Shown here: one piece after another, positions 52,651 through 64,000 of the stretch
Layout of the letters: each line of letters begins with the position of its first letter
Numbering within the stretch: position 1 is the first letter of the stretch
Source of the DNA: Clostridia bacterium
Lineage (GTDB): Bacteria > Bacillota > Clostridia > Christensenellales > Aristaeellaceae
Assembly (NCBI GenBank): GCA_017412715.1
Contig: JAFPWU010000024.1
Location: 1-64,000, forward strand
Direction of reading: 5' to 3'
DNA length: 64,000 nt
Translations under genes and position numbers: made by a program
Notes under the pieces: generated by a model
Database searches by the model: none
What the model was told of the DNA's origin: nothing
What the model saw: the letters and a program-made list of their open reading frames with translations, nothing else

Positions 52651-52796
52651 AGGGGGAGAACTGATACGAACTTACTTCTGAAAGCATGGAAATCCATCTC
52701 ATCCGATTTCTGGCGGCCTGTGAGGACATAGCTGAAAGGGGTGGGCATGGATCAAAACGGAATCAGGATAAAAGAATAGTAAAGGGGACCGAGCAA

Positions 52797-55232
52797 ATGC
52801 GTAAACAGAGCCTGAACCTGAACTGGACGTTCCGGGAAAAGGATACGTTTTTTCTGGAGATGCCCAGGGAAACGAAGAAAATCAATCTGCCCCATGACTT
52901 CATTGTGAACCGCCCCCGTTCGGCTTCCGCCTATGGTGCGGCGCCGAACGGATACTTTGGGGATGGGGAGGGAATCTATGAAAAAACGCTGGAGATTCCG
53001 GAAGAATGGGCAGGAAAGCGCCTGGTGCTGGATATAGACGGCGCATATATGAATACCGAGGTGGAGCTGGACCGGCAGCTGGTGTCCCAGCACCCTTACG
53101 GATATACGCCGTGGCTGGTGGACCTGACCGGAAGACTGAGCCCCGGAACCCATGTGCTGAAAATCAAAACCCAGAGCCGTCAGCCGTCCACCCGCTGGTA
53201 CAGCGGCGGCGGACTCTATCGGGGGGTCAGCCTGTGGGTAGGCGAGGAGACCGGCATTCTGCCATGGGATCTTTTCGTTTCCACACCGCAGGTCAGCGCA
53301 AAAAAGGCGCTGCTGAAAGCGGAGGTAACGCTGACTACAGCCTCTGCCGCACCGAAAAAAACCCTGATCACCGCCTGCGTGACGGATGCTGCGGGGAACG
53401 GAATCGCCTCAGGAAGCCTGCATACTCAGGTGCTTCCGGGAAAGAAGGCCAAATCCGACCTGTGGATGACGGTCGAGGAGCCCGCGCTGTGGAGCCCGAA
53501 GACGCCGAACCTGTATACGCTGCGGGTCAAGGTTTCCGTGCCGGGGCAGGAGGATGAAACAGCAGAAGTTTGCTTCGGCATCCGGAAATACGAAGTGGAC
53601 GCTGAACAGGGGCTGCGCCTGAACGGAAAACCGCTCAAGCTGAAGGGCGGCTGCATTCACCATGACCACGGTTTCCTCGGCAGCGCTGCTTATCCCCGGG
53701 CGGAGGAACGAAAGATTCAGATTCTGAAGGCCGCCGGCTACAACGCGGTTCGCATCAGCCACTATCCTCCCAGCCTGGCGATGCTGGAAGTCTGTGACCG
53801 GGAAGGCATGATTCTGCTGGATGAAGCATTCGACTGCTGGCGGATGGGCAAGGTAGCGATGGACTATCATCTGTATTTTGAGGACTGGTGGGAAAGGGAC
53901 GTGACCTGCATGGTGCTCCGCGACCGGAATCATCCCTGCGTCTTCAGCTACTCCATCGGCAACGAAATCGGGGAGCGGGACGGCTCCGGAGACGGCTATG
54001 CCTGGGCCCATCGAATCTCCGATAAAATCCGCTCCCTGGACAGCACACACTTTATCACCTCTGCGATCTGCGGGATTTTTGACGCGGAAGCCTTTGCCCA
54101 GGCCGTGAAGGAGGCTGGCGGCGACCCCACGAAGGTTAACTTTATGAATCTGGAACAGAAACAGAAAGAACGGGATGCATGGGGCGAAAAAACCGCCGAT
54201 TATGCTTCCGCCCTGGATATTGTGGGCTATAACTATCTGTTCCAGCGCTACGCGGAGGATCACAGGAAATTTCCGGGACGTGTCATCATGGGAACAGAAA
54301 CCCACCCTTTCAATACCTATGATTACTGGAAGGCAACCATGGAGAATCCGCATGTAATCGGGGACTTTATTTGGACCGCCTACGATAATCTGGGTGAAGC
54401 CGGGGTGGGCCGGGTAGTCTGGAACAGCAGCGGAGAGGCTCACGGCTTTATGGGCGGTTATCCCTGGCGCTCATGCTTCCAGGGGGATATGGATCTGTGC
54501 GGTTACCGCACCGGACAGAGTTACTACCGTGAAATCATGTGGGAAGCCTTTGAAGGCGGAAGCGATAAAATGGCGCTGTATACCACCCATCCCTGCCATT
54601 ACGGTGATGAATTCTGGGGAACCGGATGGCACTGGCGGGATGTGGAGGACAGCTGGAACTACGGCGAGGAATGGATTGGGAAACCGGTGCCCGTTTTTGC
54701 CTATGCGGATGCGGAAGAGGTGGAATTCATTCTGAACGGCCGTTCTGTGGGACGGGCCAGAGTAGAAAAGCTGGAAGCTGCGCTGGATATTCGTTACGAG
54801 CGGGGAAAGCTGGAAGCTGTTGCGTATCGGGACGGGAAACCGGTTGCACGGGCGGAACTGGCAACGACGGGGCCGGCCTGCAGGCTGACCGCGGCGGTGG
54901 ACCGGCCTGAAATCCGGGCGGATCAGCAGGATCTGGCCTATGTGGCGCTGACGCTGACGGATGCCCAGGGCGCCAGGGTTCCTGACGAAACGAGGGAAAT
55001 ACATATCGAAGTGGCCGGCGCCGGACATCTGGCGGGAATCGGAAACGGAAACCCCTGCACCGAGGAAAATTATGGCACCCCATTCTGCCTGGCTTACGAA
55101 GGCCGCGCGATGGCGGCGGTGATTGCAGATGAGGAAGGGGAGATTCATATCAAAGCCTGGGCGGATGGACTGGAGCCGGCGGAGACGGTGATTCGGGCCT
55201 GTGAAGCGGAAGAGGACTCTGCCCAGCGTTAA
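52797..55232 (+). CDS. GH2 glycoside hydrolase (beta-galactosidase type)
   Basis: An 811-residue family 2 enzyme: jelly-roll N-terminal domain with WYSGGGLYRGVSLWVG, Ig-like domain, TIM barrel from about residue 275, then C-terminal domains including a DUF4982-like region and a Big-like sandwich. The acid/base is Glu390 in IGNEIGERDG and the nucleophile Glu501 in MGTETHPFN. No signal peptide. ATG at 52797 follows AAGGGGA; an open frame of 37 codons upstream lacks a ribosome site. It follows the terminator at 52621, so it is probably transcribed less or from its own promoter. Only about 40 percent of the sequence looks similar to the GH2 at 25005, so they likely differ in substrate. Confidence 0.91.
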   Translation: MRKQSLNLNWTFREKDTFFLEMPRETKKINLPHDFIVNRPRSASAYGAAPNGYFGDGEGIYEKTLEIPEEWAGKRLVLDIDGAYMNTEVELDRQLVSQHPYGYTPWLVDLTGRLSPGTHVLKIKTQSRQPSTRWYSGGGLYRGVSLWVGEETGILPWDLFVSTPQVSAKKALLKAEVTLTTASAAPKKTLITACVTDAAGNGIASGSLHTQVLPGKKAKSDLWMTVEEPALWSPKTPNLYTLRVKVSVPGQEDETAEVCFGIRKYEVDAEQGLRLNGKPLKLKGGCIHHDHGFLGSAAYPRAEERKIQILKAAGYNAVRISHYPPSLAMLEVCDREGMILLDEAFDCWRMGKVAMDYHLYFEDWWERDVTCMVLRDRNHPCVFSYSIGNEIGERDGSGDGYAWAHRISDKIRSLDSTHFITSAICGIFDAEAFAQAVKEAGGDPTKVNFMNLEQKQKERDAWGEKTADYASALDIVGYNYLFQRYAEDHRKFPGRVIMGTETHPFNTYDYWKATMENPHVIGDFIWTAYDNLGEAGVGRVVWNSSGEAHGFMGGYPWRSCFQGDMDLCGYRTGQSYYREIMWEAFEGGSDKMALYTTHPCHYGDEFWGTGWHWRDVEDSWNYGEEWIGKPVPVFAYADAEEVEFILNGRSVGRARVEKLEAALDIRYERGKLEAVAYRDGKPVARAELATTGPACRLTAAVDRPEIRADQQDLAYVALTLTDAQGARVPDETREIHIEVAGAGHLAGIGNGNPCTEENYGTPFCLAYEGRAMAAVIADEEGEIHIKAWADGLEPAETVIRACEAEEDSAQR

Positions 55233-55454: not shown

Positions 55455-55898
55455 ATGAAATCAGTGCTGGAGAACCGGACGCTGATCGCCTGCATGATGG
55501 CGTGGTTTTCCGCCCAGCTGGCGAAATATCTGATCGATGGAATCCGGCGCAGGGGCTGGAGCCCCCGGCAGCTGCTTTTCGGATCGGGCGGCATGCCTTC
55601 TTCGCATACGGCCTTTGTGGTGTGCCTGGGCACCATGGCGGGACTGATCGAGGGATTTGATTCCCTGAGCTTTGCCATGTGCTTTGTGTTTGCCTTCATC
55701 GTCATGACGGACGCCATCGGGGTCCGGCGGGAGACGGGGAGACAGGGAAGCGCCATCAACATTCTGATGGACTGGTTTACCCTGGAGCACCAGTCCGAAG
55801 AGGAAAACAAGGATCTGAAGGAAAGGATGGGCCATTCCCCCCTGGAGGTGCTGGTCGGCGCCCTGTGGGGCGTAGGATGTGCCCTGATCATGAGATGA
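55455..55898 (+). CDS. Divergent PAP2-family (DUF212) membrane protein
   Basis: A 147-residue membrane protein with about three to four helices and the SGGMPSSHTAFVV motif, the phosphatase-like signature of the DUF212 divergent PAP2 family; IGVRRETGRQG is the second conserved block. PAP2 enzymes remove phosphate from lipids; activity in this divergent group is unproven. It starts behind GGGGAAGAG and overlaps the next start codon by four bases (ATGA), so it belongs to the same transcript as the redox genes, though a functional link is not clear. Confidence 0.88.
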   Translation: MKSVLENRTLIACMMAWFSAQLAKYLIDGIRRRGWSPRQLLFGSGGMPSSHTAFVVCLGTMAGLIEGFDSLSFAMCFVFAFIVMTDAIGVRRETGRQGSAINILMDWFTLEHQSEEENKDLKERMGHSPLEVLVGALWGVGCALIMR

Positions 55899-56305
55899 AG
55901 TCCGGAAGGAAGACGCCCGGGAAGGATGAATTCAGATTCCGGAAAGGAGACGGAGTCGCCGCGGGAGCGGTTGTGCTGGCGGCTGTGGCGCTGCTGGTCT
56001 GCCTCCTGACCGCGAACGGGGGCGGGAGCGCCGGCCGGGCGAAAATCTATCAGCAGGGAGAGCTGATCCGGGAGGTATCCCTCGCCGAAAATGCGGAATT
56101 CCTCATCGAGGGGGAATACCGGAACACGGTCACTGTACGGGACGGGAAGATTGCCATCACCGGCAGCGACTGTCCGGGGGAGGACTGTGTTCATTCCGGA
56201 TGGATTTTCCGGCCGGGCCGGAGCATCGTCTGCCTGCCGAATCGGGTGGAAATCCGGCTGGAGGGAACGGCGGGCGCGGACGATGTGGACGCGGTGGTGA
56301 GGTGA
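55895..56305 (+). CDS. NusG domain II-containing membrane-anchored protein
   Basis: A 136-residue protein with one helix (about 25-45) and an extracytoplasmic NusG-II-like domain. The conserved SDCPGEDCVHSGWI contains a Cys-x5-Cys pair plus His, typical of this family, which often lies beside apbE, rnf-like and FMN-binding genes in Firmicutes. ATG at 55895 overlaps the previous stop (ATGA). The Cys pair suggests redox or metal binding, but its role in flavin-based electron transfer is inferred from neighbourhood only. Confidence 0.88.
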   Translation: MKSGRKTPGKDEFRFRKGDGVAAGAVVLAAVALLVCLLTANGGGSAGRAKIYQQGELIREVSLAENAEFLIEGEYRNTVTVRDGKIAITGSDCPGEDCVHSGWIFRPGRSIVCLPNRVEIRLEGTAGADDVDAVVR

Positions 56306-56308
56306 AGC

Positions 56309-56800
56309 ATGAAGACGAAAGACCTGACCACCATGGCTCTTATGACGGCCCTGGCCCTGGCTTTGAGCTGGGTTGAAAGGCTGATTCCGCTGGAGCTGCT
56401 GATCCCTCTGCCCGGCGTAAAGCTGGGACTGGCCAATACGGTCACGCTGTTTGCCCTGTATCGGCTGAATCTGCCGGCGGCCGCTCTGATTCTGACGGCC
56501 AGATGCCTGCTGACGGCGCTGTTCAGCGGGAGCATGACGGGGCTGGCCTTCTCCCTGGCGGGGGGATTCCTGTCGATGGCCGTGATGGCGCTGGCCAGGA
56601 GAAGCCGCCACCTGAGCGTATACGGGGTCAGCGTGCTGGGCGCGGCAGGGCATAACTGCGGACAGATATTTATGGCCATGGGGCTGATGCATTCCACAGC
56701 CATCCTGGGATATCTGCCCTACCTGCTGATGATCGGAACCGTCTGCGGCCTGGCGACCGGAACGGTATGCGCGGGGGTGCTGCGGGCGGTCAGGGGCTGA
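56309..56800 (+). CDS. Gx transporter family / heptaprenyl-PP synthase component I-like membrane protein
   Basis: A 163-residue integral membrane protein with about five helices. MALMTALALALSWVERLIP and VKLGLANTVTLFALY are hallmarks of the Gx-transporter family (Pfam heptaprenyl diphosphate synthase component I). In flavin-based electron-transfer gene sets this protein recurs next to NusG-II and ApbE and is thought to work in the membrane, perhaps with quinone or flavin; that role is inference. It starts three bases after the NusG-II stop. Confidence 0.87.
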   Translation: MKTKDLTTMALMTALALALSWVERLIPLELLIPLPGVKLGLANTVTLFALYRLNLPAAALILTARCLLTALFSGSMTGLAFSLAGGFLSMAVMALARRSRHLSVYGVSVLGAAGHNCGQIFMAMGLMHSTAILGYLPYLLMIGTVCGLATGTVCAGVLRAVRG

Positions 56801-56908: not shown

Positions 56909-58105
56909 TTGAGACGAAAGATTCCCGCGGTGATGCTGGCGGTTCTGATGGGGGTATGCGCCCTGGGACTGACGGGATGCGCCGCGAAGGAGAAGATTAA
57001 ATATCAGACCACCTTCCTGAACCTCTTCGATACGGTGACATCAATCACCGGATATGAGGAAAGCGAGGAAGCCTTTAACAGGACCGCCGCCCGGATTCAC
57101 GACGAGATGGAGGCCTACGATCATCTGTACGACATCTATCATGAATACCCGGACACAGTAAATCTGTGCACGGTGAACCGGCGGGCGGGAGAGACGGTGA
57201 CGGTGGACCGGCGGATTATGGATCTGTTGGTCTTTGCCCGGCAGGTGGACGAATTCTCGGGGCACCGGACGAACGCCATGTTCGGAGCGGTGCTGCGGGA
57301 ATGGCATGAGGCCAGGGAATACGGCATCAGCAGCCCGGAAAATGCTTATCTGCCGGACGGGGAGAAGCTTCGGGCGGCGGAGAAGCATACGGGATTCGAT
57401 CTGATCGAGATGGATGAAGAATCCTGCACGGTAAGGATTACGGATCCGGAAGCCAGCCTGGATGTGGGCGCCCTGGCCAAGGGATATGCCGTCCAGAAGG
57501 TGAGCGAAACGCTGCCGGAGGGTTATCTGCTCTCCGTGGGCGGAAATGTGGTCGCCACCGGGCCGAAGCCGGACGGGTCGCTGTGGACCATCGGGGTCGC
57601 GGATCCGGAGAAGAACGGGGAAACCTACCTGCAGAAGGTAGGCATCGGCAAGGGAACCGTGGTGACCAGCGGAGATTACCAGCGGTATTATGTCGTGGAC
57701 GGAACCCGGTACAGCCATATCATCGATCCGGAGACCCTCTATCCCGGGACGAAATGGCGCGGAGTGACCGTGATCTGCGATGATTCCGGACTGGGAGACG
57801 CCCTGAGCACCTCGCTGTTCCTCCTGGACCGGGAGACGGGGCAGGAGCTGCTGAACCGCTTCGGTGCGAAGGCCATGTGGATCGACGCGGACGGAAAGCT
57901 GTTATTCAGCGACGGATATGAGAGGATGGGGATGGATCATGAAGAAGACATTACCGGCCTGGGCTGTACTGACTCTCATCTGCATCGTGGCGGCCGCGCT
58001 GCTGGCTGGAACCAACCTGATGACCAAGGACGTGATCGCGGAAAACGCCAACCGGGCCATGATGGAAACCTTCGGAAAGCTACTTCCGGATGCCGCCAGC
58101 TTTGA
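56909..58105 (+). CDS. apbE: FAD:protein FMN transferase, lipoprotein
   Basis: A 398-residue ApbE flavin transferase, which attaches FMN covalently to Thr of target proteins outside the membrane. A signal peptide with lipobox LTGC (Cys23) makes it a lipoprotein. Core motifs: the FDTVTSITGYE start, DVGALAKGYAVQKVSE, SVGGNVVATG, TSGDYQRYY and RYSHIIDPETLYP. TTG at 56909 is the start, behind GGGGAG at 56894-56899. The normal family end is near residue 343 (FSDGYERM). The frame instead runs about 55 codons further, overlapping the next gene by 167 bp with a low-complexity, non-family sequence; a lost stop or frameshift is likely. Its targets should be the FMN-binding domains encoded just downstream. 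Confidence 0.93.
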   Translation: MRRKIPAVMLAVLMGVCALGLTGCAAKEKIKYQTTFLNLFDTVTSITGYEESEEAFNRTAARIHDEMEAYDHLYDIYHEYPDTVNLCTVNRRAGETVTVDRRIMDLLVFARQVDEFSGHRTNAMFGAVLREWHEAREYGISSPENAYLPDGEKLRAAEKHTGFDLIEMDEESCTVRITDPEASLDVGALAKGYAVQKVSETLPEGYLLSVGGNVVATGPKPDGSLWTIGVADPEKNGETYLQKVGIGKGTVVTSGDYQRYYVVDGTRYSHIIDPETLYPGTKWRGVTVICDDSGLGDALSTSLFLLDRETGQELLNRFGAKAMWIDADGKLLFSDGYERMGMDHEEDITGLGCTDSHLHRGGRAAGWNQPDDQGRDRGKRQPGHDGNLRKATSGCRQL

Positions 58106-61100
58106 GACGCTGGAGAGCGGTGTGACCGTCGGAAAGGACGGGAACGGAAACCCGGTGGGGTACGCGCTGGCCGCGACGACCCAGGGCTTTGGCGGCGAGG
58201 TGGAGACCACGGTGTCCGCCCTGACGGATGGAACCATCGGCGGCATCAGCGTGGGCGGATCCAATTTCGCGGAGACGGCGGGATTGGGCGCCCGGGCGAA
58301 GGAGCCCGAATTCCAGGCGCAGTTTGCCGGAAAGAGCGCGCCTGTGGCCCTGACCAAGGACGGAGGGGAAATCGAGGCGCTGAGCGGCGCTACGATTACC
58401 AGCCGGGCGGTCATCAAGGGCGTGAACGAAGCCATGGAGGGCATTGCGGCGGAGGCAGGCTTTTCCGTCGAAGTGAAGATCAATGCCCAGAAGGTGGGCG
58501 AGGGGCAGTATTCCTCCGCCGCTCCGGGGTTCGGCGGAAATGTCCGGGTTACCCTGACCGTGGACGAAGACAGGACGATCACCGCCATGGAGATCGGGGA
58601 CAGCGAGTTCAACGAAACGGAAGGCCTCGGAAAGAGAGCGCTGGAGCCTGAGTTCCAGGCCCAGTTTATCGGAAAGACGCTGCCTGTGACCGCGGACCAG
58701 ATCGACGGTCTGACCGGGGCGACCATCACCACTGGCGCGGTGCTCGAGGCGATCGGAAACATCTCCAGCGGCCTGGATAAGGGGCTGGCGGATATGGAGA
58801 TTACGGCCCTGGAAGCGCCGGAAACGGCTGCGGAGGAAGAGACCGCGGAACCGGAGACTGCGGAAGCGGAGCCAGCGGAAGCCGCGGCAGAGACTTCGGA
58901 AGTGAAGACAGAGGAAGCAGAAGCCGTAGAAGAGGCTGCGGCGGAAGCCCCAGCTGTTGAAACTTCCGGCGAAGCGCTTTCCGCGTCGGCCCAGGGATTT
59001 GCCGGGCCGGTGAAGGTGACGCTGACGCTGGATGAGAAGAAGACGATTACCTCCATCGAGATCGGGGATGAGAACTTCGCCGAGACGGAAGGCATGGGAA
59101 AGAAGGCGCTGGAGCCTGAATTCCAGGCACAGTTCATCGGAAAGACCATCCCGCTGACGATGGATGATATCGACGCGCTGGCGGGGGCCACCGTGACCAC
59201 CACAGCGGTCATTGAAGCAATCAACACCATTGCCGCCGGACTGGACGGAGCTACGGCTGAGGAACCCGAAGCGGCGGAGGCCCCGGCGGCGGAAACTTCC
59301 GGCGAAGCGCTCTCCGCGTCGGCCCAGGGATTCGCCGGGCCGGTGAAGGTGACGCTGACCCTGGATGAGAAGAAGACGATCACGTCCATCGAGATCGGGG
59401 ATGAGAACTTTGCCGAGACGGAAGGCATGGGAAAGAAGGCGCTGGAGCCTGAATTCCAGGCACAGTTCATCGGGAAGACCATCCCGCTGACGATCGAGGA
59501 CATCGACGCGCTGACGGGGGCCACCGTGACCACCACCGCTGTGGTCGAGGCGATCAACACGATTGCCGCCGGGCTGGACGGAGCTACGGCTGAGGAACCC
59601 GAAGCGGCGGAAACCCCAGCTGTTGAAGCTTCCGGCGAAGCGCTTTCTGCGTCGGCCCAGGGATTTGCCGGGCCGGTGAAGGTGACGCTGACCCTGGATG
59701 AGAAGAAGACGATTACCTCCATCGAGATCGGGGATGAGAACTTCGCCGAGACGGAAGGCATGGGAAAGAAGGCGCTGGAGCCTGAATTCCAGGCCCAGTT
59801 CATCGGAAAGACTGTTCCGCTGACGATGGATGACATCGATGCGCTGGCGGGGGCCACCGTGACCACCACGGCGGTAGTCGAGGCGATCAACACCATTGCC
59901 GCCGGGCTGGACGGAGCGCCGGCCGAGGAAACCGCAGAGGATCCTGCCGCTGAAGAAGCTGCGCCGGCAGCCTCCGATTCCGGAACCGGATACATCATGG
60001 CAGGAGCGGGCACCGGGATTACGGTGATCCCTGCCACCGAATGGGAGAACACCTTCCCGGACGTATATGCCAGCTACATGGCGAACGCGGAGAATGAGGA
60101 AGTCGTCGAGTATACGGAACAGTATCCTTTCCTGGGGACGGTTTACGAGGACTATGGATTTGCGAAATATTACGGCAGCGCCCGGGGTCACTATTACAGC
60201 ATCTCTGACCTGATGGCCACCGGACGGCCCCACGCGCTGGCCAATTGCTTCACCTGCAAGACGGCGCAGTTTACCGTCATGACCCTGAATGAGGGGAACA
60301 GCGCCTACAGCAAGCCCTTTGAGGAGATCGACGCCTCCGGATTTGAGGACATCGGGTGCTTTACCTGCCACGCTAATACCCCCGGAGGAAAGATCACCGT
60401 GACCCACAGCTATCTGGTGGACGCCATGGGCGAGGACTTCGAAAAGGTGAAGGGCGAGGTGCTTTCCTGCGGGCAGTGCCACGTGGAATACTACTTTGCG
60501 CCCGACGGGAAGGCAACCTCTCTGCCCTACACCAACCTGGCCGGCATGACGCCGGACGCCATGTACGAATTCTACGAGGCGATGGACTTCGCGGACTACA
60601 CCAATCCCCGGACAGGCGTTCGGCAGCTGAAGGCGCAGCACCCGGAGATGGAGACCTTCCTGGGCGAGGGAAGCGTTCACAGAAGCACCTTTACCTGTGC
60701 GGACTGCCATATGGAGCGGCTGACCAATGAGGCAGGGGAAACCTACCTGAGCCACAAGTACGTGAGCCCCCTGGAGAGCGAGACGATCCGGCAGAACTGC
60801 AGTGCCTGCCATGCCGACCTGACCGGATTCGTTCACGGAATTCAGGAAAAGATGGAGGCCAGAACCATTGCCATCGGGGAGGAACTGGAAACCTTGACAA
60901 ATCGCCTGGCGGACGCGGTAGCAGGCGGAAAATACACGGATGAGCAGTTGACGGAGATTCGGGCGCTGAACCGGAAGGGACAGTGGTACTGGGATTTCGT
61001 CTTTGTCGAGAACAGTGAAGGAGCACATAACTCGAAGCTTGACAACTCCTGCCTCGATAAGGCGGAGACCGCCATTCACGAGGCGCTGGATCTGCTGGAC

Positions 61101-61115
61101 AGGCTGGATGTCTGA
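57939..61115 (+). CDS. Five-FMN-domain / pentaheme NrfA-type nitrite reductase fusion
   Basis: A 1058-residue extracytoplasmic protein. An N-terminal membrane anchor (about 7-27) is followed by an RnfG-like FMN-binding domain and four more. Each has a flavinylation motif whose acceptor Thr lies at about 152 (SGAT), 262 (TGAT), 418 (AGAT), 529 (TGAT) and 640 (AGAT). An Ala/Glu-rich linker separates domains 2 and 3. From about residue 693 it is an NrfA-like ammonia-forming nitrite reductase. Heme 1 is CFTCK (Cys770-Lys774), the lysine-ligated active-site heme unique to NrfA. Four CXXCH sites follow at 807, 844, 920 and 954. The catalytic Tyr851 or Tyr852 (CHVEYY) and His901 (AQHPEME) are kept, with Arg763 a candidate third residue. 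The NrfA part (about 366 residues) is shorter than usual (about 440-480). ApbE upstream and CcsA/ResB downstream fit flavin and heme loading. Electrons would flow FMN to heme to nitrite; the substrate is inferred. Confidence 0.92.
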   Translation: MKKTLPAWAVLTLICIVAAALLAGTNLMTKDVIAENANRAMMETFGKLLPDAASFETLESGVTVGKDGNGNPVGYALAATTQGFGGEVETTVSALTDGTIGGISVGGSNFAETAGLGARAKEPEFQAQFAGKSAPVALTKDGGEIEALSGATITSRAVIKGVNEAMEGIAAEAGFSVEVKINAQKVGEGQYSSAAPGFGGNVRVTLTVDEDRTITAMEIGDSEFNETEGLGKRALEPEFQAQFIGKTLPVTADQIDGLTGATITTGAVLEAIGNISSGLDKGLADMEITALEAPETAAEEETAEPETAEAEPAEAAAETSEVKTEEAEAVEEAAAEAPAVETSGEALSASAQGFAGPVKVTLTLDEKKTITSIEIGDENFAETEGMGKKALEPEFQAQFIGKTIPLTMDDIDALAGATVTTTAVIEAINTIAAGLDGATAEEPEAAEAPAAETSGEALSASAQGFAGPVKVTLTLDEKKTITSIEIGDENFAETEGMGKKALEPEFQAQFIGKTIPLTIEDIDALTGATVTTTAVVEAINTIAAGLDGATAEEPEAAETPAVEASGEALSASAQGFAGPVKVTLTLDEKKTITSIEIGDENFAETEGMGKKALEPEFQAQFIGKTVPLTMDDIDALAGATVTTTAVVEAINTIAAGLDGAPAEETAEDPAAEEAAPAASDSGTGYIMAGAGTGITVIPATEWENTFPDVYASYMANAENEEVVEYTEQYPFLGTVYEDYGFAKYYGSARGHYYSISDLMATGRPHALANCFTCKTAQFTVMTLNEGNSAYSKPFEEIDASGFEDIGCFTCHANTPGGKITVTHSYLVDAMGEDFEKVKGEVLSCGQCHVEYYFAPDGKATSLPYTNLAGMTPDAMYEFYEAMDFADYTNPRTGVRQLKAQHPEMETFLGEGSVHRSTFTCADCHMERLTNEAGETYLSHKYVSPLESETIRQNCSACHADLTGFVHGIQEKMEARTIAIGEELETLTNRLADAVAGGKYTDEQLTEIRALNRKGQWYWDFVFVENSEGAHNSKLDNSCLDKAETAIHEALDLLDRLDV
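58959..59957 (+). repeat. 333-bp tandem triplication encoding FMN-binding domains 3-5
   Basis: Three in-frame copies begin at 58959, 59292 and 59625, exactly 333 bp (111 codons) apart, and are nearly identical at the DNA level, so recent. Each encodes one FMN-binding domain and its Ala/Glu linker. Confidence 0.96.
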
Positions 61116-61225: not shown

Positions 61226-62026
61226 ATGAACGTTTTACTGTTGATTTCGATTCTGCTTTACTTCGCGGCCATGGCGGTTCAGTTTGCCGCTTCGGCGGGA
61301 AAAAAGGCCGGCCTGCACAGAATCGCGCACGGGATCCTGTTTGCCGGACTGACGGCTCATACGGCGATGATGGTCTGGCGGGGGATCGCGGCGGGCCGGC
61401 TTCCCCTGGCCAATCAGTTTGAGTTTGCCAGCGGGTTTGCCTGGGCGGTCGCGGTCATCGGGATCGTCCTCCGGGCCAGGCTGAAGCAGGAGGCCGTCCT
61501 GACCGCCGCCCTGCCCGCGGCGTTCCTGATCCTCAGCTATGCGGCGTTCCAGCCCCGGGAAATCCGGGAGCTGATGCCGGCCCTGCGGTCCTCCTGGTTC
61601 GGGCTGCATATCGGATCTGCGGTCCTGTCCTACGCTTCCTTCGCCATTTCGGCCGGGCTGGCGGTGACCTACCTGCTTCGGCTGAGGAAGGGCGCTTCGC
61701 CGGAGGACGGGACGATGGTTCGGCTGGATTATGTCGGATATCGGCTGATCTGCTTCGGATTTCTGATGCTGACGGTGGTCATCTTTTCCGGGGCCATCTG
61801 GGCGGAGCAGGCATGGAGCAGCTGGTGGAGCTGGGACCCGAAGGAGACCTGGGCGCTGATCACCTGGATTTTCTATGCCATTTATCTGCATCAGCGGCTG
61901 CGCATGAAATGGCGCGGAAAGCGGATGGCCATCCTGGCGGTCATTGCGATTATCCTGGTGCTTTTTACGTTCGCCGGGGTAAACTGGCTGCTTCCCGGGC
62001 TTCACAGCTACGCGACCGCGGGCTGA
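61226..62026 (+). CDS. ccsA: System II cytochrome c biogenesis protein CcsA/ResC
   Basis: A 266-residue membrane protein with about eight helices that carries heme out of the cell and presents it for attachment to apocytochromes. The WSSWWSWDPKETWALITW segment is the tryptophan-rich heme-handling signature, and His residues flank it in neighbouring loops (for example YAIYLHQRL and HIGSAVLSYASF). ATG at 61226 follows AGGAG. It pairs with ResB downstream and is expected to mature the five hemes of the fusion protein at 57939, whose CFTCK site is unusual for system II but known to be handled in some bacteria. Confidence 0.93.
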   Translation: MNVLLLISILLYFAAMAVQFAASAGKKAGLHRIAHGILFAGLTAHTAMMVWRGIAAGRLPLANQFEFASGFAWAVAVIGIVLRARLKQEAVLTAALPAAFLILSYAAFQPREIRELMPALRSSWFGLHIGSAVLSYASFAISAGLAVTYLLRLRKGASPEDGTMVRLDYVGYRLICFGFLMLTVVIFSGAIWAEQAWSSWWSWDPKETWALITWIFYAIYLHQRLRMKWRGKRMAILAVIAIILVLFTFAGVNWLLPGLHSYATAG

Positions 62027-62057: not shown

Positions 62058-63290
62058 GTGAAAAAAGTCTTTCTGTTTCTGCGCTCCATGCGCTTCGGCA
62101 TGATCCTGCTCTGCCTGATCATGATCCTGTCCCTGGCGGGGTCTCTGATTCCCCAGGGGGAGGAAGCCATGACCTATGTCCGGGCCTACGGCGCCGGAGC
62201 GGCATCCTGGATCATCCGGCTGGGAATCGACGATCTCTTTCACAGCTGGTATTTCCTGCTGATCATGGGGCTGCTGTGCGGAAATCTGCTCCTCTGCAGC
62301 ATCCTGCGCTTCCCGAAAACCCTGAGGACGATGGAGGGACTGAAACGTCAGGCGAAGGAGGCGGAATGGGATCATCCCCTCGCGCCGGGGCAGGCGGAGA
62401 AGATCAGGGACAGGCTGTCCGCCATGCACTTCCGGAGGGACGGAAACCTGTATACGGCGCATGGAATTGGAGCGTACGGCTCCTTCCTGGTCCATCTGTC
62501 CATTCTGCTCATCCTGCTGTTCGGCTCCCTTACGCTGATGACGCCGAAGATTCAGGACCTTACCGTGCTTCCCGGGGACAGCCTGACCCTGGCGGACGGG
62601 ACCGAAGTGACCTGCCTTTCCTTCCGGATTGAGAACGAAAAGGGAGAGCTGGATTATACAAGTCTGCTGAGGGCGATCTCGCCGGGCGGAGACCGGGAAA
62701 AGGAGCAGGAGGTCCGGGTGAATGAGCCGCTCCGGTTCGGACAGTACAAGATCTACCAGCAGACGTACGGAACCGCGGGGAGGGTTCTGATCCAAAACGA
62801 AGGCAACGGGGCGGAGGAAACCCTGTATCTGACGGAACCCGCCTTCCTCTCCATTGACAGCCGGAACGGCGTGTATTTTCAGACCCTGTATCCGGGGTAT
62901 ATTCAGGAGGAAGACGGGTCCTATACCCTGATCACCAGCACGGCCATGGGATACGCGGATCCGGTTTACAGCGTTCAGTCCATTTCGGAAGGAAGCTCCG
63001 CCTCTGTGCTGGCCTTTCCGGGGGAAACGATCCGGATCGGAGAGATCAGCTTTATCTTTCTGGAGCCGGAGGAATATCCCGGGCTTCGGATCAAGACGCT
63101 CTCACCGTTTCTCTACGGCGGGCTGTATTTCGGGTTCGGGCTGATTGTGGCGGCGCTGTATCTCTGCTTTTTCCACACGCCGGTGTGCGTGCGGGTAGAG
63201 GAGGAAGGGGTTGTGATCCGGGCCTCAAAGGAGGTTCCGGAGCTCCGGGCGCAGCTGGATGAATCGGGACAGGGTGAATTCAGTATCTGA
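62058..63290 (+). CDS. resB: System II cytochrome c biogenesis protein ResB
   Basis: A 410-residue partner of CcsA. Membrane helices lie at about 10-30, 60-80 and 135-160, then a large extracytoplasmic domain (about 165-355), then a C-terminal helix (LYGGLYFGFGLIVAALYL). The start SMRFGMILLCLIMILSLAGSLIPQG is the ResB hallmark. GTG at 62058 lies behind AAGGAG. ResB binds the apocytochrome and helps thiol reduction and heme ligation. No separate thioredoxin-like ResA is in the window. Confidence 0.91.
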   Translation: MKKVFLFLRSMRFGMILLCLIMILSLAGSLIPQGEEAMTYVRAYGAGAASWIIRLGIDDLFHSWYFLLIMGLLCGNLLLCSILRFPKTLRTMEGLKRQAKEAEWDHPLAPGQAEKIRDRLSAMHFRRDGNLYTAHGIGAYGSFLVHLSILLILLFGSLTLMTPKIQDLTVLPGDSLTLADGTEVTCLSFRIENEKGELDYTSLLRAISPGGDREKEQEVRVNEPLRFGQYKIYQQTYGTAGRVLIQNEGNGAEETLYLTEPAFLSIDSRNGVYFQTLYPGYIQEEDGSYTLITSTAMGYADPVYSVQSISEGSSASVLAFPGETIRIGEISFIFLEPEEYPGLRIKTLSPFLYGGLYFGFGLIVAALYLCFFHTPVCVRVEEEGVVIRASKEVPELRAQLDESGQGEFSI

Positions 63291-63473
63291 TTTCCCTTTT
63301 CAAAAAATTACAAAAACTTCATATTCTTCAATTTTCATTCAAGGAAAGTCCGTTATGATACGCATGTCATCAGGGAACGGCACCCTGTGGCAGGAACCGA
63401 ATCCCGGTTTGCCGTAACCGGGAAACGGATGAATGGAAATCAGAACCTGAATGAGAATAAGGAGGATATCAAA

Positions 63474-64000
63474 ATGAAGAAAATCTTTGCAGGAATCCTG
63501 GCAGCGGCCTTGCTGCTGACCGCCCTTGCACTCCCGGCCATGGCCGAGGAAACGACAGCGACGAACACCGCAGCCATTACCGCCAGGGGCGGCCGCGGGC
63601 AGAACGGCAGGCAGGGTCAGGGGCCCGGCGGAAATCAGAACGGCCAGATGCCCCAGATGCCCGGGAACAACGGTCAGAACGGCCAGATGCCGGGAAACAA
63701 CGACCAGAACGGCCTGGTGCCCCAGATGCCCGGGAACAACGGTCAGAACGGCCAGATGCCTGGAAACAACGACCAGAACGGCCAGGTGCCTCAGATGCCC
63801 GATAGCAACAGCCAGAACGGCCAGATGCCCCAGATGCCCGGAAACAACGGCCAGAACAGCGATCAGAACACTCAGAATGGCCAGAACAACAGCCAAAGAA
63901 CTCCTCAGAACCGGAAGGGGAGACAAATGAACGGACGGGGACCCAAGGCCAAAGTGGACTTCAGGAGCCTGGTGGATCAGGGAATCATCGATCAGGAGAC
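63474..64000 (+). CDS. Secreted Asn/Gln/Gly/Met/Pro-rich repeat protein, 3' end outside window
   Basis: At least 175 codons, open to the window end. A signal peptide (MKKIFAGILAAALLLTALAL, AMA cleavage) is followed by a flexible repeat region built from QMPGNNGQNG-like units, then a basic stretch and a return to a folded-looking segment (KVDFRSLVDQGIIDQE). That segment resembles the short calcium-independent helix motifs at the ends of other secreted Clostridia proteins. AAGGAGG precedes the ATG, and a weak TATGAT at 63354-63359 may be its promoter. I do not recognise a function. It follows resB by 183 bases and need not belong to the redox genes. Confidence 0.85.
   Translation, partial: MKKIFAGILAAALLLTALALPAMAEETTATNTAAITARGGRGQNGRQGQGPGGNQNGQMPQMPGNNGQNGQMPGNNDQNGLVPQMPGNNGQNGQMPGNNDQNGQVPQMPDSNSQNGQMPQMPGNNGQNSDQNTQNGQNNSQRTPQNRKGRQMNGRGPKAKVDFRSLVDQGIIDQE
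63651..63857 (+). repeat. 69-bp tandem coding repeats, about 2.5-3 copies
   Basis: Units start at 63651, 63720 and 63789. The first two differ at only a few bases; the third is diverged. Each encodes 23 residues with two QMP and two GNN elements, so copy-number change would stay in frame. Confidence 0.9.

Follow-up and report, generated by a model that had tools for sequence, protein, structure and literature searches.

NrfA, the pentaheme ammonifying nitrite reductase, is known to be fed by quinol-linked cytochromes. The role of multi-flavinylated proteins, which carry several covalent flavin mononucleotide (FMN) domains, is called unclear in passages of two reports (PMC8238504, PMC12052999). 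In Christensenellales, Meheust et al. 2021 describe multi-flavinylated RnfGs with a multi-heme cytochrome domain and draw a model of them in Fig. 6H; NrfA has no occurrence in the main text (PMC8238504). Experimental precedent for a multiheme cytochrome as an outlet of Rnf comes from MmcA in Methanosarcina (PMC11024163). Here we describe a gene at 57939..61115 (+ strand) in a stretch of 64,000 nucleotides from a Clostridia bacterium of the Christensenellales (GenBank assembly GCA_017412715.1, contig JAFPWU010000024.1, positions 1 to 64,000; 'the window' means this whole stretch). It is a rnfG::(FMN_bind)4::nrfA fusion, encoding 1058 amino acids (aa) in a single open frame.

We lean towards the view that this protein is the RnfG of the ferredoxin-oxidising Rnf complex, lengthened by four FMN domains, with a complete NrfA joined to its outer end. 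Covalent flavins would then link Rnf to the conversion of nitrite to ammonium.

Five FMN domains and a nitrite reductase in one frame

No stop interrupts the translation. Pfam finds five stretches of FMN_bind (E 8.4e-65) and, at residues 701-1049, Cytochrom_C552/NrfA (E 2.3e-64), and these values rule out chance motif matches. An original prediction, made from the letters alone, had claimed five FMN domains and a pentaheme NrfA in one protein, and this holds; the motifs that it listed (CFTCK, four CXXCH, CHVEYY and AQHPEME) are all in the translation. With five FMN_bind domains, where more than one would suffice, the protein is a candidate multi-flavinylated protein.

The first part (57939..58448, +; residues 1-170) consists of an N-terminal helix at residues 5-48 and FMN domain 1, with the motif EALSGAT at residues 146-152. 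RnfG of Clostridium tetanomorphum (PDB 7zc6_G) matches residues 1-181 at E 2.2e-21, and RnfG of Acetobacterium woodii (9eri_G) matches the same residues at E 6.3e-14; that is, the chain opens with a transmembrane helix and an FMN domain like those of solved RnfG. Foldseek, run on the predicted model, recovers both partners from one chain: NrfA (2rdz_A, E 2.3e-14) and RnfG (9eri_G, 8.8e-8; 7zc6_G, 1.6e-7). As judged from sequence and predicted fold, residues 1-170 look like an RnfG subunit and not a generic anchor. The original prediction had spoken of a membrane-anchored chain of flavins: the transmembrane helix is there, but with RnfG as the anchor the protein probably forms part of Rnf and is no flavin wire standing by itself. 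The other four FMN domains follow on the same strand at 58494..58778 (domain 2, DGLTGAT), 58962..59246 (domain 3, DALAGAT), 59295..59579 (domain 4, DALTGAT) and 59628..59912 (domain 5, DALAGAT); the pattern [S/T/A]GAT[I/V]T starts at residues 149, 259, 415, 526 and 637. A low-complexity linker (59913..60038, +) then leads to NrfA. It has a predicted local distance difference test score (pLDDT) below 50 at residues 659-696, and it lies in the place that a signal peptide, judged by eye, occupies in un-fused sisters.

The NrfA part (60039..61085, +) scores 222.5 bits with PF02335, and all 22 PDB sequences that it matches are cytochrome c-552/NrfA or octaheme nitrite reductases (3ubr, E 5.6e-41; 1gu6, E 4.5e-39). 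It has the five heme sites of NrfA, the first of them CXXCK, all on the + strand: CFTCK at residue 770 (60246..60260), with the lysine ligand of the active-site heme; CFTCH at 807 (60357..60371); CGQCH at 844 (60468..60482), followed by VEYY with the glutamate and tyrosine of the calcium site; CADCH at 920 (60696..60710); and CSACH at 954 (60798..60812). Active-site and calcium-site residues are all present in the window fusion (P0001) as R763, K774, E850, Y851, K898, Q900 and H901. The corresponding positions were taken from E. coli NrfA (Arg106, Lys126, Glu215, Tyr216, Lys261, Gln263 and His264), which we take to be functional, in an alignment of 57 rows that includes E. coli NrfA itself, with P0001 among the 56 other rows. 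All of them but Arg106, and every heme cysteine, histidine and lysine, are the same in 56 of the 56 others; Arg106 is kept in 55 of 56; the histidines at E. coli positions 94, 275, 301 and 393 are invariant. The ratio of nonsynonymous to synonymous substitution rates (dN/dS) of the NrfA part is 0.13-0.20 against four of five sisters, where dS is high, at 1.2-1.4; no dS was obtained for the fifth sister. On these residues the NrfA part looks catalytically complete, and nitrite would be its substrate.

Electron donors and a possible route

Donors were looked for in the 45 genomes of the genus set, which includes the window's own. Neither the NrfH family nor NrfD was found in any of the 45, E. 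coli being positive in both controls; these profile searches took in NrfH and NrfD but not NrfB or NrfC. The claim that flavins replace the usual donors of NrfA agrees with these two negatives and with the joining of FMN domains and NrfA in one chain. A flavin route into NrfA is favoured by the lack of NrfH and NrfD matches taken together with the flanking genes: apbE, encoding the FMN transferase, lies upstream (56909..58105, +; PF02424, E 2e-58; N-terminal lipobox-like LTGC by eye), and the cytochrome c maturation genes ccsA (61226..62026, +; PF01578) and resB (62058..63290, +; PF05140) lie downstream.

The route would run as follows: ApbE, from the gene just upstream, would place FMN on the acceptor threonines, and the five hemes would be attached by CcsA/ResB, from the genes just downstream. 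Rnf would take electrons from the reduced ferredoxin of fermentation; these would exit at the RnfG flavin, hop along FMN 2-5 and enter the NrfA hemes, where nitrite would become ammonium on the outer side of the membrane, with no part played by quinol, NrfH or NrfB. We infer flavin and heme loading, an Rnf in this organism, assembly of the fusion into it and the direction of the electrons. Ferredoxin lies at about -0.4 V and the nitrite/ammonium couple at about +0.34 V. The flavins of SaFMN3 are given as -184 mV (PMC10339131), between the two, so the overall electron direction would be downhill.

A probable displaced rnfG of the subclade

A full-length RnfG was defined as a match spanning profile positions 2/3 to at least 184. 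It lies within an RnfD frame in 28 of the 45 genus genomes, in a longer RnfD-free frame in 10 (the window included) and in a 225-aa protein in one (G022); none was found in the remaining 6, and no genome of the 45 has two. The RnfD-free rnfG follows apbE in the window and seven sisters (eight of the 10 checked; G062 and G067 are not among these), and no full-length rnfG other than this apbE-linked one was found in the seven sister genomes. Eight genus genomes have RnfD in a frame of its own, and seven of them have a free rnfG; none was detected in the eighth, G061 (68% complete). Five of these eight operons were read (G014, G019, G018, G032 and G061), and all five run C-D-E-A-B; within 20 kb around them there was no match to a hidden Markov model (HMM) of the FMN domain, and the control L053 gave C-D-G-E-A-B. 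These operons without rnfG are at L056, L057, L058, L059 and L067, and four of the five genomes have a free rnfG elsewhere, beside apbE. Operons without G and a free, apbE-linked rnfG suggest, as the simplest account, that the apbE-linked gene serves this subclade as its rnfG. The window fusion belongs to this apbE-linked type, and the Rnf link would extend to this very organism.

Neighbouring genes and the making of the fusion

Ahead of apbE, all on the + strand, lie a DUF212/divergent PAP2 gene (55455..55898), a NusG domain II gene (55895..56305) and a gene for a Hpre_diP_synt_I-like membrane protein (56309..56800). The upstream set of four genes (DUF212, NusG_II, Hpre_diP_synt_I, apbE) is common to the window and to L042, L045, L046 and L048, and DUF212 and apbE are common to the window, L043 and L047. 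The apbE frame overlaps the fusion gene by 167 nt (57939-58105) in a different frame; at the sister locus L042 it stops ahead of the rnfG start codon. Downstream, after resB, the window has a gene for an N/Q-rich (N/Q/G-rich), probably secreted protein (63387..64000, continuing to 64358 on the contig, +), whose part within the window has no Pfam match. Homologues of this gene stand right after rnfG in G019 (L043) and G007 (L047), which makes it the ancestral downstream neighbour of rnfG; in both sisters the free rnfG and the N/Q-rich gene are followed by response regulator-like and sensor kinase-like genes (by eye). On the window contig the corresponding pair lies at 70184 and 70861 (identity to L043 and L047 of 87% and 85% for the regulator, 67% and 69% for the kinase). 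Between it and the N/Q-rich gene stand two genes (64408-69891), of which the second looks by eye like a glycosidase gene. Such downstream neighbours are matched in two of the seven sister loci; the other five differ or have truncated downstream sequence.

When a collection of genome contigs was scanned with the NrfA part, close relatives turned up at 21 loci, with 57-75% identity, all in records of metagenome-assembled genomes (MAGs). Several of these carry ruminant-gut labels, and the source organism is probably gut-dwelling. The only one with an FMN domain in the NrfA frame is L086; L073 and L088 are broken or partial. In the intact un-fused relatives a signal peptide (by eye) comes just before the conserved region, where the window has its FMN linker. 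In the window nrfA-ccsA-resB thus separates rnfG from the gene that ancestrally followed it; the join is in frame, and the signal peptide of NrfA is gone. The order of ccsA and resB is swapped relative to the sister nrfA loci, so the fusion event was not a simple block move.

Further upstream in the window a gene of glycoside hydrolase family 2 (52686-55232) follows a sugar permease-like gene of the ATP-binding cassette type (by eye), in line with a carbohydrate-degrading lifestyle.

Recurrence of FMN-NrfA fusions

NrfA is present in 24 of the 45 genus genomes, and in 19 of the 24 the NrfA frame also carries FMN domains: 1 to 6 of them, before NrfA, after it or on both sides. These counts come from a local FMN HMM more generous than Pfam (three FMN stretches of G035 pass Pfam against six by the local HMM, and the single Pfam FMN match of L094 is below cut-off). 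Two of the 19 are affected by contig breaks: G005 seems to be spread over two contigs, and a contig end truncates G068. The un-fused NrfAs, five in number, are secreted (G009, G014 and G024) or have a membrane anchor and stand beside rnf genes (G006 and G010). A unique fusion is thus ruled out, and the description of this one as unusual and perhaps little described has to be tempered: FMN-NrfA fusions recur, and multi-flavinylated RnfGs with a multi-heme domain are already in print (PMC8238504).

Of the 20 genus genomes whose NrfA falls outside the window's NrfA clade, 18 have RnfD-G on the same stretch as NrfA; in the remaining two the locus is near a contig end. The G035 operon, the only one read gene by gene, has the order rnfC, rnfDG, rnfE, rnfA, rnfB, fusion, resB, ccsA. 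The rnf-operon fusions start with a different anchor than RnfG, so the window version looks like a separate solution. The related genus g35 also has fusions (L093, L094 and ten of 16 further stretches), and an Oscillospiraceae-labelled MAG has one FMN domain fused to NrfA, with resB-ccsA downstream (L086:9476-11044); this is apparently a separate third origin.

On the NrfA tree the 21 fused rows need three changes. The simplest account of these sequences would be that the FMN-NrfA fusion arose three times; a single gain with two later losses would also make three changes, and L086 sits on a fairly long branch. A single clade of all fusions was rejected by the approximately unbiased (AU) test (p 2.6e-37; 55-row tree with the two longest branches removed, the first tree having 57 rows). 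The trees leave out three duplicates (L071, L072 and L087), fragments (L041, L065, L073 and L088) and the later loci L106-L121. Beyond the window's family (f1), no FMN-NrfA fusion was recognised by open-frame length in 396 genomes of the order and 391 of the class, nor among the matches listed for a phylum sample of 398 genomes; from the latter only G894 (a 787-aa frame) was read, with no FMN domain, and NrfA frames of 519-540 aa and partial multi-heme frames of up to 810 aa were left out.

Three observations concern particular relatives. An NrfA near rnf genes (L028:9481-11475, in G006) has a long C-terminal tail of IDPxxMMRxRP-like repeats and no FMN domain. In G064 (L061:8766-11717) FMN_bind, FAD_binding_2 (flavocytochrome-c/fumarate-reductase-like) and NrfA share one chain, two terminal-reductase types on one polypeptide, beside a four-FMN protein. 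At L049, L050 and L051, proteins with 3-6 FMN domains each lie near an RnfD-G gene with NrfA absent: an FMN wire without the enzyme.

It seems about an even bet that the Rnf pump and an ammonifying nitrite reductase are physically one here, RnfG ending in NrfA and passing ferredoxin electrons directly to nitrite along a wire of covalent flavins that needs neither quinone nor NrfH or NrfD, and that gut Clostridia built such FMN-NrfA couplings apparently three times, from RnfG or other FMN domains and from different NrfAs.

Weighing the readings

Several results weigh against an Rnf-linked flavin route to NrfA. The NCBIfam rnfG model TIGR01947 gives the whole fusion 225.5 bits, a score reached by summing domains; residues 1-181 alone have 97.6 bits (94.7 in the genome search) against a cut-off of 102, and the window is not among the 10 of 45 genus genomes with an RnfG match above that cut-off. 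RnfD and RnfA/E have no match in the window's own genome, which is 54.7% complete. The closest NrfA relatives are stand-alone secreted NrfAs, and G014 has a free rnfG and a secreted NrfA as two separate genes, so the FMN link is not needed for that NrfA type. The predicted model has a mean pLDDT of 71.3, a predicted template modelling score (pTM) of 0.42 and linkers between the FMN beads below pLDDT 50; with linkers so flexible the domain placement is not meaningful, and FMN-heme distances are not readable from it. Lastly, the published flavinylation motif, D-x-x-[S/T]-G-A-[S/T] (PMC12052999), is fitted exactly by two of the five domains, 2 and 4: domain 1 has glutamate instead of aspartate, and domains 3 and 5 have alanine instead of serine or threonine. 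The acceptor threonine is kept in all five, and an aspartate-to-alanine change in the motif is given as having minor effects only (PMC12052999). The five covalent flavins of the original prediction are thus plausible, not certain: five domains with acceptor threonines stand, three of them with imperfect motifs. Domains 3-5 share 93-94% DNA identity with exact repeats of 100-119 nt, which in a short-read assembly leaves some uncertainty in the copy number.

The most serious of the alternatives supposes a real fusion that works outside Rnf, as a membrane-tethered flavin wire reduced by another membrane donor or by diffusible reductants. The lack of any Rnf gene in the incomplete genome speaks for it; the RnfG character of the first domain, in sequence and fold, and the sister rnf operons that have no rnfG of their own speak against it, and we think it possible but rather doubtful. 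A different question concerns the substrate, since NrfA enzymes reduce hydroxylamine, nitric oxide and, slowly, sulfite; the NrfA part could serve mainly for one of these, in detoxification for example, or be an electron-transfer multiheme module. Nitrite from the metabolism of 3-nitrooxypropanol is put at about 1.5 uM (PMC12918512), which is in favour of this idea, but all tested active-site residues of a nitrite reductase are kept, and we hold it to be unlikely. It is very improbable that metagenome assembly falsely joined an ordinary rnfG-FMN gene to an ordinary nrfA operon. The assembly is incomplete, with 36 contigs, the exact join is in none of 60 other genomes and none of the 21 relative loci, and sisters keep the genes apart; yet the rnfG locus of the sisters L043 and L047 is matched on either side (upstream by DUF212 and apbE, downstream by the N/Q-rich gene and the regulator-kinase-like pair), and with both flanks syntenic two false joins would be needed. 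Moreover, the reading frame runs on across the join, the signal peptide is left out there, and analogous fusions recur in the genus. On the two-sided synteny a contig chimera was set aside as first choice.

Comparison with known systems

If true, a flavin-wired RnfG-NrfA would be a quinone-free disposal of fermentation electrons on nitrite, with a bearing on rumen nitrite toxicity and methane control; it would also give a multi-flavinylated chain a definite enzyme as its terminus. Within the one genus, fused, split and flavin-extended versions occur side by side, a natural series in which the building of flavin wires can be studied.

The window fusion shares with RnfG of 7zc6_G and 9eri_G the N-terminal helix and an FMN domain with flavinylation motif; it differs in the four more FMN domains and NrfA appended to it, and in the glutamate that replaces the aspartate of the motif. 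With NrfA of E. coli (1gu6) and Shewanella (3ubr) it has in common the CXXCK of heme 1, the four CXXCH, the Arg/Tyr/His active site and the calcium-site residues; unlike them, it is fused to FMN domains, has no signal peptide of its own for NrfA, is shorter at the C-terminus and comes from a genus with no NrfH or NrfD match. SaFMN3 and CbFMN4 also carry several covalent FMN domains per chain, but the account of them at hand mentions no enzyme domain (PMC10339131). MmcA likewise takes Rnf electrons through a multiheme cytochrome to acceptors outside, but it is a heptaheme protein on its own, whose kin are octaheme tetrathionate reductases and not NrfA, and it has no FMN chain (PMC11024163).

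An FMN_bind-NrfA or RnfG-NrfA fusion was not found by name in the open-access literature, a scope that leaves aside preprints, most subscription papers and supplementary tables. RnfG and NrfA both occur in PMC4837345 and PMC12908670, and Christensenellales together with nrfA in PMC10823672. Closest are the Christensenellales RnfGs of Meheust et al. 2021, which combine an RnfG-type multi-FMN chain with a multi-heme domain and were proposed as a second electron outlet of Rnf (PMC8238504). On catalytic residues, a displaced rnfG, repeated origins and missing NrfH/NrfD the passages of that paper on these RnfGs are silent (PMC8238504). A looser form of the idea is therefore already in print, and the window fusion is a sharper variant of a kind already glimpsed.

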